NCBI GenBank assembly: GCA_005776395.1
Contig: SXPJ01000026.1
Coordinates: 1 to 64,000 of the forward strand
Length of the DNA: 64,000 nucleotides
Reading direction: 5' to 3'
From: Bdellovibrionales bacterium
GTDB lineage: Bacteria; Bdellovibrionota; FAC87; UBA2466
Each line of letters starts with the position of its first letter. The stretch's first letter is position 1. Below the pieces are notes generated by a model, which saw nothing but the letters and a program-made list of their open reading frames with translations, was not told the DNA's origin and searched no databases. The position numbers were made by a program, and so were the translations under genes. This document shows, one piece after another, positions 59,377 through 63,980 of the stretch.

Positions 59377-60783
59377 GTGTATTCGATTTTAGTCGTAGAT
59401 GACGAAGAGGCTTTACGAAAACAGGTCGTAAGTCTGCTTATCTCTCATGGATACCAAGTAGATGAGGCCTGCGATGGAATGGAGGCCGCCCAGAAAATAG
59501 CACAACATCCCTACCCTCTGGCTCTTTGCGATGTAAGAATGCCACGACTTACGGGCTTAGAATTGCTCAGACACATTCGTGAACACGAATTTTCTACTAC
59601 CGTAGCGCTCATCACTGCGCACGCTAATATAAAAGATGCTGTTGAAGCCATGAGAGAAGGGGCTTTTGATTACATCGAAAAGCCTATTAAAGAGGCTACA
59701 CTGCTTGAAATCGTAGCTAAGGCCAAAAAAGCTCATGACATGATTGAGAAGCTAACTCTCTCTGCCCCTATGTTAACTCCCGGGGAAGGTAGAGAGTGCG
59801 TAGGTCAAAGCAAAGAAATGAAACGGGTATTCCAAGTCGTTGAAAAACTAACCCGAGTCAACACCTCTGTTTTAGTGCGAGGAGAAAATGGGACCGGTAA
59901 AGAGCTTGTAGCCAGAGCTATTCATTTTAACAGTCCACGAAAAGATGGCCCCTTTGTTGCGGTGAACTGCGCAGCAATTCCAGAAACACTGATTGAAAGT
60001 GAACTATTTGGACACGAAAAGGGGGCTTTCACTGGGGCTGATCAAAGACAAATTGGTAAATTTCAGTCCGCGGCCAAAGGAACTCTGTTCTTAGATGAAA
60101 TTGGCGATACCAGCCCAGCTACCCAAGTAAAACTTTTGAGAGTTCTTCAGGAACATGCTTTTACCCCGGTAGGAAGTTCCCGAGAGATTAAATCTGATGT
60201 CCGAATTATTGCGGCTACAAATCGTGATCTAGAAAAAATGATTCGGGAAGGAAAATTTCGAGAAGATCTCTATTACCGTCTCAATGTGATGCCTATATTT
60301 CTCCCCTCTCTAAAAGAGAGAAGAGATGATATCGCTGGTTTAGTAAACCATTTCATTGAAAAATTTAATCAAGAGCACGGACAAAGGATAACAACCCTAT
60401 CTCCAGAGGCTCTAAGCGCCCTTGAAAATTTTCATTGGCCCGGTAATATTCGCGAACTTGAGAACGCCATTGAGCATGGATTTGTAGTTGAATCCTCATC
60501 ATTTCTAACTTTTGCGAGCTTACCCGATTACATAAAAAGAGCGACTCGAAGAGCTCACTCTCCTCACAAAACCACGCTTCAGGTTGAAGCCTTAGATTGG
60601 GAAAGAGGAAAAGAGAGTTTCGAGAGGGAATTCATCGTTCAGGCACTAAAGAAAAATAGTGGCCGAATTAATTTAACAGCCGAAATTGCAAATATTCCCA
60701 AGAACACTCTTCTTAGAAAAATTAAAAAGTACAACATCAATCCGCGAGAACATGGCGGATGGGAAGGCAATCTTGAATCCTAA
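59377..60783 (+). CDS. NtrC-family sigma-54-dependent response regulator
   Basis: A 468-residue regulator with three parts. The receiver has SILVVDDEEALRKQ and LALCDVRMPRLTGLELL, with the acceptor Asp. The AAA+ domain has Walker A VRGENGTGKELVARAIH, the sigma-54 contact loop GHEKGAFTGADQRQIGKF, LFLDEIGDTSP, and RLNVMPIFLPSLKERRDDI. A Fis-type HTH ends the protein (GRINLTAEIANIPKNTLLRK). It activates sigma-54 promoters after phosphorylation, probably by the CHASE2 kinase just upstream. The frame opens at TTG 59338, but GTG 59377 has GGGG eight bases before it and starts at the receiver. Confidence 0.93.
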   Translation: MYSILVVDDEEALRKQVVSLLISHGYQVDEACDGMEAAQKIAQHPYPLALCDVRMPRLTGLELLRHIREHEFSTTVALITAHANIKDAVEAMREGAFDYIEKPIKEATLLEIVAKAKKAHDMIEKLTLSAPMLTPGEGRECVGQSKEMKRVFQVVEKLTRVNTSVLVRGENGTGKELVARAIHFNSPRKDGPFVAVNCAAIPETLIESELFGHEKGAFTGADQRQIGKFQSAAKGTLFLDEIGDTSPATQVKLLRVLQEHAFTPVGSSREIKSDVRIIAATNRDLEKMIREGKFREDLYYRLNVMPIFLPSLKERRDDIAGLVNHFIEKFNQEHGQRITTLSPEALSALENFHWPGNIRELENAIEHGFVVESSSFLTFASLPDYIKRATRRAHSPHKTTLQVEALDWERGKESFEREFIVQALKKNSGRINLTAEIANIPKNTLLRKIKKYNINPREHGGWEGNLES

Positions 60784-61564
60784 AATCCCTTCACCAAATA
60801 AAGAGCTAACCTATTCCTCCTACTTAAAAGTTGAAGAATTGTTATCACTACAGACCCCCCTCTCTCAACCTGTGGCTCATGACGAACTATTATTCATTGT
60901 TATTCATCAGGTTTATGAACTCTGGTTTAAGTTGGTTCTTTTCGAATTACGCTCGCTGATTTCTTATCTAGAGAAAGATAACCTCATTCAGAGTTTTCAT
61001 GCCTTAAAAAGAGTTTCTGAAATTTTTAAAGTTCTGATTCAGCAGTTGGACATACTAGAAACAATGACCCCAACCGACTTTAATAAATTTCGTTCAAGCT
61101 TAAATCCTGCGAGTGGTTTTCAAAGTTTACAATTTAGAGAACTGGAGATTATCTCGGGAGCTAACATCGCAGATTACCAAAAATTTGCCCCACTAGCGCC
61201 TGAATGGCTCCCTAAACTCCAGGAATTAGCTAACCAAGGTAATCTTCCTGAGGCTTTTAAAAATTTACTTTTAAAGAGAAAAATTACAGAAGATTTATCA
61301 CCTGACAAACTTCGAAAAGGGCTTTTAGAGATTTACCAAAACCCAACGCACCAAGACCTCCAAACCCTTTGCGAAGCTCTTCTAAGCTATGATGAGCAAC
61401 TTTCTCTTTGGCGATTTCGTCATGTTCAAATGGTTGAAAGAATGATTGGAATGAAAAAAGGAACTGGTGGTTCCCTAGGAGTCTCATACCTTGCGCAAAC
61501 TTTAACCAAGCGTTTTTTTCCAGAGCTTTGGGAGCTTAGAACCCATCTCTCTAATGGCTATTAA
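60752..61564 (+). CDS. kynA: Tryptophan 2,3-dioxygenase
   Basis: A 270-residue heme dioxygenase that opens the indole ring of tryptophan to give N-formylkynurenine. LTYSSYLKVEELLSLQ, then LLFIVIHQVYELWFKLVLFE with the distal His (H52) and the substrate-contacting YELWFK, then LWRFRHVQMVERMIGMKKGT with the heme-ligating His, and GGSLGVSYL are diagnostic. The frame extends up to 60686, but ATG 60752 gives the family length and overlaps the regulator gene by 32 bases. It faces the formamidase fusion gene, which performs the next step. Confidence 0.94.
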   Translation: MADGKAILNPKIPSPNKELTYSSYLKVEELLSLQTPLSQPVAHDELLFIVIHQVYELWFKLVLFELRSLISYLEKDNLIQSFHALKRVSEIFKVLIQQLDILETMTPTDFNKFRSSLNPASGFQSLQFRELEIISGANIADYQKFAPLAPEWLPKLQELANQGNLPEAFKNLLLKRKITEDLSPDKLRKGLLEIYQNPTHQDLQTLCEALLSYDEQLSLWRFRHVQMVERMIGMKKGTGGSLGVSYLAQTLTKRFFPELWELRTHLSNGY

Positions 61565-61610: not shown

Positions 61611-63200
61611 TCAATTAACCATCTCTGTAAGAACAGCTCGAACAGGGCTAGCATCAGCCCCTTGGATTCTCAGCGGAATAGCAGAGAAGCTATAGATCCC
61701 CTCATCAACTCCATTTAAGACAATTCCCTCAAGAATATTCATTCCCGCTTTCACTGTCGCATGGTGAGCCGGAAAATCTTTCGAAGCAAAGGAATCTATC
61801 GAGGGGGTATCTATCCCTATCAAAACAACCCCCTGCTCTCCTAAATATTCAATAGCCTCTTTCGACATGCAAACGAAATCCTGATTAAATTGATTAGGAT
61901 CAGGAAAAGAATCTGTCCTTATTAATACTCGTCGAGATAAAATATTTTTTCCTGTTAAATCTTTCTTCTCAACCCACGTTCCTCGTGTTTTCTTTAAATG
62001 AATAACCTGGGCCTCTCCACAATAAGGTTCAAGCTCATGACTTTCTATTCCTTGAGTGGTTTTCTCGAAATGATTTATTGCATCTGTATGGGCTCCTACA
62101 TGAACCGTGGTCTCAAAGCTTGATAACGTCATGTGATTACCTTTAAGTGTATCCATTGCAACGTTTCTTCTAAATCCGACATCCCCAGGCCAAACAGCTA
62201 TCTTTTCACTTAACTCAGGACTGATATCGAAAACTTTTTTGATCTCTTTTTTAAAAGGCTGATAGTGATACGTGATCTCATGGTCCGGGGAATAATCCTC
62301 TACGGGATTAAGATGTAACTCTCTAAGAAGAGGCGCTAAAGCTAAAGCCGCTAATTTAGGGTGATATCCCGCCCAAGTCTTCACTACGATACCAAGCCCA
62401 TTCAGATATTTACTATTAGGTAAAATACTTAGCCCCAATAAGCCATCGGCCCCCTCTTTTGCAATGAGGCTTAAGTTTTTTTGCATAAGCAGGGTATCAA
62501 CTCGATCGGGTCCGCCTATCCACATTGGATTGTTAAGCATCATTTGCTGAACTATTTTCAAATCGGTTGCTGGCTTAGCCTGAGCCAGTCTTTGATATAA
62601 CTTTGCCATCTCCCCCAAACTCAAAACAGGTGAAGGCAACTTACATCCATCGACTACAGTTTTTGGCTCGGTTAGATTTAAATCTAAAAGACGAGCTAAG
62701 ATCTCAATAAGTCTCTTATGATAAGGATGATTGATCTCATTATAGCTCTCCAAATCCCATCCATTTTTTTCACAAGCTTCTAGAATCGCTAAATGCTTTG
62801 AAAAACACATATGAAAATAGTGAGAAGGGACCTCCTTTTTATTTTTAAAATAGACTCTCGATTCTTCATCGGAAGGATAATTTGGAATAAATTTTAGTTT
62901 TGATAAAAACTTTGAATGGACAGCCTCACCGTACCATTTTTTAAGTTGTTCAACTTGAGCTAAAGAGGCCGAAACAGATCCCAAACACGGTACATATCTC
63001 AAATCGGTCACTGAATCTGCATGAATTCCCGTTGCTAGAAACTGAAAAGGTTTTAAAAGAGATCTCATAGGATACTGCCCTAGAGAATCTCGGGTTTGAA
63101 ATATCACTCGATTTCCATCGTGAACCACGATTTCGCCATGAACCACGATTTCCGTACAACCGTCTCTTTTAAGCGAGAATAATCGAGTTTTATCCCACAT
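61611..63200 (-). CDS. Fusion of class-3 asparaginase-like amidase and kynurenine formamidase (KynB)
   Basis: A 529-residue two-domain protein. Residues 1-310 match the asparaginase II (PF06089, Rhizobium etli type) family: YPMRSLLKPFQ (S47, K50), GSVSAS (S75-S79), MCFSKHLAI (C132, K135), VVDGCKLPS (C186) and LIAKEGADG (K248), so the Ser-Lys pairs and Cys/Lys zinc site of that family appear retained. Residues 325-529 are KynB: AVWPGDVGF, then HVGAHTDAINHFEK with metal ligands H367, H371, D373 and H377. KynB hydrolyses N-formylkynurenine to kynurenine. The start has no upstream alternative. It is coded 9 bases after the hydratase gene. Confidence 0.85.
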   Translation of the reverse strand: MWDKTRLFSLKRDGCTEIVVHGEIVVHDGNRVIFQTRDSLGQYPMRSLLKPFQFLATGIHADSVTDLRYVPCLGSVSASLAQVEQLKKWYGEAVHSKFLSKLKFIPNYPSDEESRVYFKNKKEVPSHYFHMCFSKHLAILEACEKNGWDLESYNEINHPYHKRLIEILARLLDLNLTEPKTVVDGCKLPSPVLSLGEMAKLYQRLAQAKPATDLKIVQQMMLNNPMWIGGPDRVDTLLMQKNLSLIAKEGADGLLGLSILPNSKYLNGLGIVVKTWAGYHPKLAALALAPLLRELHLNPVEDYSPDHEITYHYQPFKKEIKKVFDISPELSEKIAVWPGDVGFRRNVAMDTLKGNHMTLSSFETTVHVGAHTDAINHFEKTTQGIESHELEPYCGEAQVIHLKKTRGTWVEKKDLTGKNILSRRVLIRTDSFPDPNQFNQDFVCMSKEAIEYLGEQGVVLIGIDTPSIDSFASKDFPAHHATVKAGMNILEGIVLNGVDEGIYSFSAIPLRIQGADASPVRAVLTEMVN

Positions 63201-63209
63201 AAATATCTC

Positions 63210-63980
63210 TTACTCTGCAGTGAAACTTAGAACCTCTTGAGGCCATTCAACTTCAATTCTATCGTTTCTTTTAAAGGGCACACTTTGAGTGATCCCACCT
63301 GTCAAGATCACCATGCCTGGTAAAATACTTTTTGCCTCTTCAGCTAAACTATTAGCCAATGAAACTACGGAAAGCAAAGGATCTCCCAGAACGGCAGAGG
63401 GGGCCCCAGTCTCAACAATCGCCCCATTTTTCCTAACACAAATTCCCATAAGATTAAGATCGTTTAGTTCGGAAAGTAAATTCACTCGTCCCACCATAAA
63501 ACCAGCCGCCGATGTATTATCTGCAATCACATCTTCCAATTTAAAAACAAAGTTCTCGTACCGACTATCGACTATTTCCAAAGCAGGATAGATCCCTTCT
63601 AAGGCTGAAACCACGTCCCTTAATGTCACTCCAGGCCCTTTTAATTCTCGATTTAATACCACAGCAACTTCGGGCTCTACACGTGGATGAATTCGTGCCC
63701 CCATCTTAACAGTTCCCCCCTTTGGGATTTCAAAACTTTTAAGAATATAACCACGGATAGGCTCGTACACATTCACGTCTCTTTGCTTAGCTTTTGAGGT
63801 CAGTCCCATTTTATAACCCGCTAAATTCTCACCGGCTTCCTGGGCCAAAATACAACTTAAATCCTGGACTTCCCTTGCATCTTTCAAAGAAAATTGAGTT
63901 TCCGTTTTACTTATCTGAGGCACAGCTCTTTGATTCATTAACGCTTGTCTTAACATCTCTGCAATAGATTGATTATTCAT
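63210..63980 (-). CDS. 2-oxopent-4-enoate hydratase/4-oxalocrotonate decarboxylase family enzyme
   Basis: A 256-residue MhpD/FAH-like enzyme: LAGYKMGLTSKAKQRDVNVY, then ILKSFEIPKGGTVKMGARIH, PRVEPEVAVVLNRELKGPGV, YPALEIVDSRYENFVFKLED and VIADNTSAAGFMVG, with PEVAV Glu residues binding Mg. Such enzymes act late in meta-cleavage routes, including the 2-aminomuconate branch of kynurenine degradation. The ATG follows AAGGA. It precedes the amidase-KynB fusion in one operon; further pathway genes probably lie beyond the right edge. Confidence 0.85.
   Translation of the reverse strand: MNNQSIAEMLRQALMNQRAVPQISKTETQFSLKDAREVQDLSCILAQEAGENLAGYKMGLTSKAKQRDVNVYEPIRGYILKSFEIPKGGTVKMGARIHPRVEPEVAVVLNRELKGPGVTLRDVVSALEGIYPALEIVDSRYENFVFKLEDVIADNTSAAGFMVGRVNLLSELNDLNLMGICVRKNGAIVETGAPSAVLGDPLLSVVSLANSLAEEAKSILPGMVILTGGITQSVPFKRNDRIEVEWPQEVLSFTAE

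Follow-up and report, generated by a model that had tools for sequence, protein, structure and literature searches.

An asparaginase-like domain fused to kynurenine formamidase in Bdellovibrionota and a candidate kynureninase-free route of tryptophan catabolism

We identified in a Bdellovibrionales bacterium a gene in which a class 3 asparaginase-like domain (PF06089) is fused to kynurenine formamidase (KynB). The gene lies in a stretch of 64,000 nucleotides, hereafter the window. We consider it reasonably probable that the encoded protein is bifunctional and that its N-terminal domain evolved as the second half of a kynurenine-cleaving pair whose first half is a luciferase-like monooxygenase (LLM; Bac_luciferase family PF00296). 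The chances are also somewhat better than even that the phylum has an undescribed tryptophan pathway that dispenses with kynureninase, with the window protein being the hydrolase of this pathway fused to KynB. The fusion is a new combination of known families and the kynurenine route, if confirmed, is new. The main value of the fusion is the evidence that its relatives provide for this probable route.

The fusion is encoded by one open reading frame (61611-63200, minus strand) that starts with ATG and runs for 529 amino acids without internal stops. It belongs to the PF06089 family by a match over residues 10-300 (152 bits against the Pfam cut-off of 25). The cyclase profile PF04199 (Pfam) matches residues 324-469 with 69 bits, and the arylformamidase profile TIGR03035 (NCBIfam) matches residues 323-526 over positions 2-205 of its 206 with 179 bits, short of the equivalog cut-off of 223 bits. 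Because the profile is covered almost in full while the score stays below the equivalog cut-off, we regard the KynB half, as judged by its profile match, as complete but divergent.

The fusion is present once in its genome, and the same joint is found in one open frame in eight other genomes at 43-64% identity: three of the window's genus (G001, G002 and G003), four of the same family (G009, G010, G012 and G013) and one of the same order (G014). The fusions of G004 and G005 run off contig ends and were left out of this count. Since eight other genomes have the joint in one frame, so that it is kept in nine including the window, we excluded a frame error, an assembly artefact or a chance joint. 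A search of genome contigs with the fusion as query matched only close genus relatives, plasmids showed separate asparaginases and cyclases but no fusion, and phages gave a single distant, unannotated PF06089 match. As far as searched, the fusion is confined to one family and its order. The first-pass annotation had described one frame joining a PF06089 amidase to a complete KynB in an architecture it did not recognize, and had asked for a search for both domains in one protein and for a check against a frame error; its description holds on each of these points, and we found no paper describing this asparaginase-like/KynB fusion in the open-access literature.

The N-terminal domain (residues 1-312; 62265-63200, minus strand) is predicted by AlphaFold with a pLDDT of about 90. 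Its top Foldseek match is ReAV (E 2.5e-22), and no solved structures lie nearer than ReAV and ReAIV, the class 3 (type IV/V) L-asparaginases of Rhizobium etli. We aligned the domain with the R. etli ReAV sequence from p42e, for which the catalytic roles have been described and alanine substitution at any of five catalytic residues abolishes activity (PMC12292245). All five are kept. The motif R46-S47-L-L-K50-P (63048-63065, minus strand) supplies the catalytic arginine, the serine nucleophile and the first lysine (ReAV R47, S48 and K51), GSVSAS (62964-62981, minus strand) contains S75, equivalent to ReAV S80, and A-K248-E-G-A251 (62442-62462, minus strand) holds the second catalytic lysine and the oxyanion-hole alanine (ReAV K263 and A266). 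The Cys-Lys-Cys zinc site is likewise kept, with C132 and K135 in M-C132-F-S-K135-H (62793-62810, minus strand; ReAV C135 and K138) and C186 in D184-G-C186 (62634-62651, minus strand; ReAV C189). In ReAV the zinc anchors the alpha-amino and alpha-carboxy groups of the substrate (PMC12951835).

The active site is complete in every alignment row that covers it, which bears out the earlier observation that the key Ser, Lys and Cys positions are present and answers the question of whether homologues have lost the active site. The domain thus shares with ReAV and ReAIV the fold, the Arg-Ser-Lys/Ser/Lys set, the oxyanion alanine and the zinc ligands, but differs from them in its identity of only about 20%, its fusion to KynB, its location in kynurenine/2-aminophenol operons and the loss of the H81-S82 motif. 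None of the fusions retains the H-S/N-G motif that follows S75 in other PF06089 proteins, and a variant zinc loop is common to all of them. The substrate is probably an aspartate aryl ester or anilide rather than asparagine. We also observed that most unfused orthologues have Ser/His/Asp or Ser/Gln/Asp in place of the zinc-binding Cys/Lys/Cys (e.g. L035:8632-9738; ReAV positions 135/138/189), a replacement that suggests a changed metal or none.

The KynB domain occupies residues 319-529 (61614-62246, minus strand) and matches KynB crystal structures with E 2e-31. It is a full-length TIGR03035-type domain that keeps the HxxxHxD...H...E pattern of metal ligands, and H367, H371, D373, H479 and E491 are invariant in all nine fusions. 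It differs from known KynB in carrying the asparaginase-like domain at its N-terminus and in scoring below the equivalog cut-off; the unfused KynB of locus L172 also falls below it, with 196 bits. The structural model that had been proposed as a check agrees with the domain assignment: its C-terminal half matches KynB structures, with part of this half modelled at low confidence, and the N-terminal half matches ReAV first.

As the first-pass annotation noted, the gene faces tryptophan 2,3-dioxygenase (TDO) and follows a hydratase-family gene. TDO (60686-61564, plus strand; PF03301 and TIGR03036, profile match at residues 39-288 with the ORF call including upstream overlap) adjoins the fusion in convergent orientation, linking its KynB half to TDO. 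On the other side lies HYD1 (63210-63980, minus strand), of the 4-oxalocrotonate decarboxylase/2-oxopent-4-enoate hydratase family (TIGR03218/TIGR03220 below cut-off). The operon extends upstream past the window with a second hydratase/decarboxylase gene (HYD2), ALDH and RidA (L002 3973-6733), so that the order in the window's genus is fusion, HYD1, HYD2, ALDH and RidA, then guaA and guaB, with TDO convergent (L002, L049 and L050). The ALDH has 2-aminomuconate 6-semialdehyde dehydrogenase as its best solved-structure match (E 2e-124), and the solved structures matched by the RidA include a 2-aminomuconate deaminase along with other RidA proteins.

An LLM gene adjoins the fusion, with TDO convergent, in three genomes of the same family (G010, G012 and G013; L052, L053 and L056). 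The order in genus g6 is guaB, guaA, LLM and fusion, again with TDO convergent (L053 and L056), while contig L052 ends after LLM. In G014, one contig (L093) ends with LigB, RidA, ALDH, HYD2, HYD1 and LLM and another (L054) begins inside the fusion by TDO; we infer that the two join as one operon. The position of guaA and guaB directly upstream of tryptophan-catabolic genes recurs in this family (L002:6737-9749, L050, L053 and L056).

The unfused orthologues of the N-terminal domain lie in operons ordered SDR-LLM-ALDH-LigB-LigB-ASN-RidA or SDR-LLM-ASN-ALDH-LigB-LigB/RidA, where ASN denotes the asparaginase-like gene. Several of these operons have KynB or TDO in the same cluster (L035, L037, L039, L040, L059, L169, L171, L176, L179, L182, L186 and L187), as in genome G245, where SDR-LLM-ASN-ALDH-LigB-LigB/RidA-KynB stands beside TDO (L176). 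Genome G194 has LLM, ASN, KynB and TDO as four adjacent unfused genes with ASN overlapping KynB (L172), an arrangement that could have given rise to the fusion. The two LigB proteins match solved subunits of 2-aminophenol 1,6-dioxygenase (E 5e-113 for beta and 3e-44 for alpha). The ring substrate in these operons is therefore probably 2-aminophenol, which a single oxidation and a single hydrolysis separate from kynurenine. In a domain tree, built quickly and with long branches, the fused and LLM-linked proteins together split from the remaining PF06089 proteins, with the fusions grouped in a single clade (SH-aLRT 99). Those remaining PF06089 proteins of the phylum branch separately and lie outside kynurenine/2-aminophenol operons.

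Two further gene associations were seen in these clusters. In a subset of operons the alpha-type LigB and RidA form a single fused protein (L059:9231-10514, L169:12766-14334, L171:4263-5843, L176:4195-5664 and L179:4549-6012), a second fusion inside the same proposed route. At L182:11111-14170 and L047:7159-10236, a PurT-type formate-dependent GAR transformylase comes after an LLM-KynB pair and could recycle the formate that KynB releases.

We surveyed 325 genomes of the phylum that are at least 80% complete. LLM is present in 50 and the unfused domain in 41, every one of which has LLM; the fused domain is present in 11, four of them with LLM. Altogether 45 of the 50 LLM genomes have the domain in fused or unfused form. 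Kynureninase above the cut-off (PF22580) is found in 69 of the 325 genomes but in none of the 50 with LLM. Both systems occur in five families; in the TDO-bearing genomes of these families, and with stratification by family, 7.5 overlaps of LLM and kynureninase were expected and none was observed (P = 1.3e-6, an indicative value as family is a coarse control for ancestry). Within the 33 genomes checked for both kynureninase and 3-HAO, the two were absent from the seven with the unfused domain and the four with the fused domain and LLM, and all 11 genomes of the phylum in this set that have KynB without the domain have kynureninase. TDO occurs without kynureninase or LLM in many of the phylum's genomes.

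The conversion of kynurenine to 2-aminophenol amounts to swapping the acyl side chain for a hydroxyl, and by established chemistry an aryl-side Baeyer-Villiger insertion followed by hydrolysis achieves this swap and leaves aspartate. The fusion, its catalytic residues, the operon contents, the co-occurrence and the mutual exclusion are observed, and from them we infer the substrate and the chemistry of LLM and the substrate of the hydrolase. In the proposed route, the KynB half would convert N-formylkynurenine to kynurenine, and the FMN-dependent LLM would carry out the Baeyer-Villiger step on kynurenine, placing an oxygen beside its aryl ketone. The product would be the beta-(2-aminophenyl) ester of L-aspartate, and a rearrangement of this ester to N4-(2-hydroxyphenyl)asparagine may follow. 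Cleavage of the beta-aspartyl bond by the Ser-Lys/zinc domain would then release L-aspartate and 2-aminophenol, so that one chain would carry out steps two and four of the route. Enzymes of the ReAV family cleave the beta-acyl bond of aspartyl substrates (PMC12951835), and the proposed aspartyl ester would carry the same alpha-amino and alpha-carboxy groups that the zinc of ReAV holds. In the relatives, 2-aminophenol 1,6-dioxygenase, ALDH and RidA would take 2-aminophenol to 2-aminomuconate and on to 4-oxalocrotonate.

The placement of the hydrolase follows from two observations. Known amn operons take 2-aminophenol to acetyl-CoA and lack an asparaginase (PMC3790839), which makes a position upstream of 2-aminophenol the most likely one for the hydrolase. 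The domain tracks LLM and the absence of kynureninase, and it is therefore placed directly after kynurenine. In the LLM-bearing genomes the route fits the genomic facts. Compared with the canonical TDO-KynB-KMO-KynU-HAAO-ACMSD-AMSDH-RidA pathway, it would have the same start and the same end, 2-aminomuconic semialdehyde, with LLM, the asparaginase-like protein and the LigB pair in place of KMO, kynureninase (KynU), 3-HAO (HAAO) and ACMSD. The canonical pathway is intact elsewhere in the phylum, as the operon KMO-KynU-HYD with KynB-ALDH-RidA-HAAO-ACMSD-SDR (L061, L063 and L103). The amnBA-type dioxygenase, amnC-type ALDH and RidA-family protein of the relatives resemble the amn pathway of Burkholderia xenovorans LB400 and pseudomonads, but the known pathway is fed by 2-aminophenol, supplied for example by nitrobenzene, and includes neither LLM nor an asparaginase, while here it is apparently fed by kynurenine (PMC3790839). 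In the open-access literature we found no paper that joins kynurenine, Baeyer-Villiger chemistry and 2-aminophenol in this sense, and none that links aminomuconate with asparaginase.

Several observations weigh against the pairing with LLM. The type II, FMNH2-dependent Baeyer-Villiger enzymes are taken to include both luciferases and diketocamphane monooxygenases (PMC8706424), and LLM is linked to them by membership in PF00296. However, its sequence is distant from every proven Baeyer-Villiger ketone monooxygenase, and its reaction is read from context: a phmmer search against the PDB gave no match, and by profile the solved matches were alkanal monooxygenases only (best E 1e-6). No flavin reductase was identified in the LLM operons. 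Four genomes (G223, G236, G297 and G298) have a full-length LLM but lack the domain. Outside the phylum, one full-length LLM homologue with 46% identity on the Streptomyces clavuligerus plasmid pCLA1 (L109:12001-13245) stands beside DUF389 and polyprenyl synthetase genes, with no kynurenine genes within 12 kb; we regard this case as uninformative. The replaced zinc ligands of most unfused orthologues and the H-S/N-G motif lost in the fusions count on the same side. At three loci (L174, L175 and L178) LLM adjoins KynB in a genome where no asparaginase-like orthologue was found; there, ester hydrolysis may be spontaneous or due to another esterase.

A further objection comes from the window's own genus. 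Neither LLM nor LigB was found in the window genome, in targeted searches, or in five genus relatives (G000-G005), although LLM was found in G010, G012, G013 and G014, which have the same fusion. The five relatives (G001-G005) carry HAAO, ACMSD, KynU and a KMO-like FAD monooxygenase in one operon. Targeted searches of the draft window genome (G000) found neither KynU and 3-HAO nor the flanking gene of the KynU operon, and a gap in the draft or a loss of the region is possible. In this genus the N-terminal domain could be a relic: LLM would have been lost when the kynureninase module was gained, and the domain kept through its fusion to KynB, perhaps to stabilize or dimerize it. The loss of the H-S/N-G motif would also agree with this explanation, which we take seriously but hold to be less likely than not. 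Of the columns invariant in LLM-bearing relatives, 88-91% are kept in the N-terminal domain of the window's genus against 91-97% in KynB, and the ratio of -ln(identity) between the N-terminal domain and KynB is 1.13 within the window's genus against 1.30 within g6. Constraint on the domain there thus equals that in the LLM-bearing relatives, with all catalytic residues and zinc ligands kept, and a degenerate N-terminal domain was rejected on both grounds. A relic concerns the present role of the domain in this genus and is compatible with its origin in a pair with LLM. The domain there either acts on another substrate, or receives the ester from an unrecognized oxygenase, or is kept for the fold of KynB.

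It is improbable that the domain is an ordinary L-asparaginase of nitrogen or aspartate metabolism whose link to kynurenine genes is incidental. The conserved catalytic and zinc residues of ReAV and the structural proximity to ReAV and ReAIV would suit such an enzyme, but the invariable company of LLM around the unfused orthologues, mostly inside 2-aminophenol or kynurenine operons, would not, nor would the separate branch formed by the other PF06089 proteins of the phylum outside such operons. We judge it very unlikely that LLM hydroxylates the kynurenine ring and that the asparaginase-like protein is a C-C hydrolase replacing kynureninase, giving alanine and (3-hydroxy)anthranilate. Such a pair would account equally for the genomic exclusion of kynureninase. 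Yet the ring-cleaving enzyme of these operons is of the 2-aminophenol 1,6-dioxygenase type, and they lack an ACMSD-type decarboxylase for the anthranilate carboxyl. Kynureninase relies on PLP to stabilize the leaving carbanion, and a site for PLP is lacking in the PF06089 fold.

The least credible role is a late one, in which 2-aminomuconate, or an enamine or amide related to it, would be the substrate of the domain and ammonia would be released; the ALDH, RidA and two hydratase/decarboxylase-family genes of the window-genus operon would suit it, but RidA, the deaminase for aminomuconate, is already in these operons, characterized amn clusters have no asparaginase (PMC3790839), and G010, G012 and G013 keep the fusion and LLM beside TDO although neither LigB nor 3-HAO was found in them, and aminomuconate is therefore unreachable by either known route. 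The first-pass annotation was thus right that two hydrolases of one route are fused with the N-terminal active site intact, while the role it suggested for that domain, on 2-aminomuconate-derived or formyl-amide compounds or in ammonia release, is not supported.

If the pairing with LLM is true, tryptophan catabolism would have a branch that yields aspartate and 2-aminophenol rather than alanine and (3-hydroxy)anthranilate. Class 3 asparaginases, which are under study for leukaemia therapy, would gain a natural role on a substrate other than asparagine. The amn pathway, for which nitrobenzene is named as a source of 2-aminophenol in the LB400 work (PMC3790839), would gain a kynurenine source. 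Obligate predators have been reported to keep TDO and no other kynurenine-pathway gene, with an unknown pathway proposed as one explanation (PMC4646340), and the TDO-only genomes of our survey agree with this report. For part of the phylum, the LLM, asparaginase-like and LigB set offers a concrete candidate for such a pathway.
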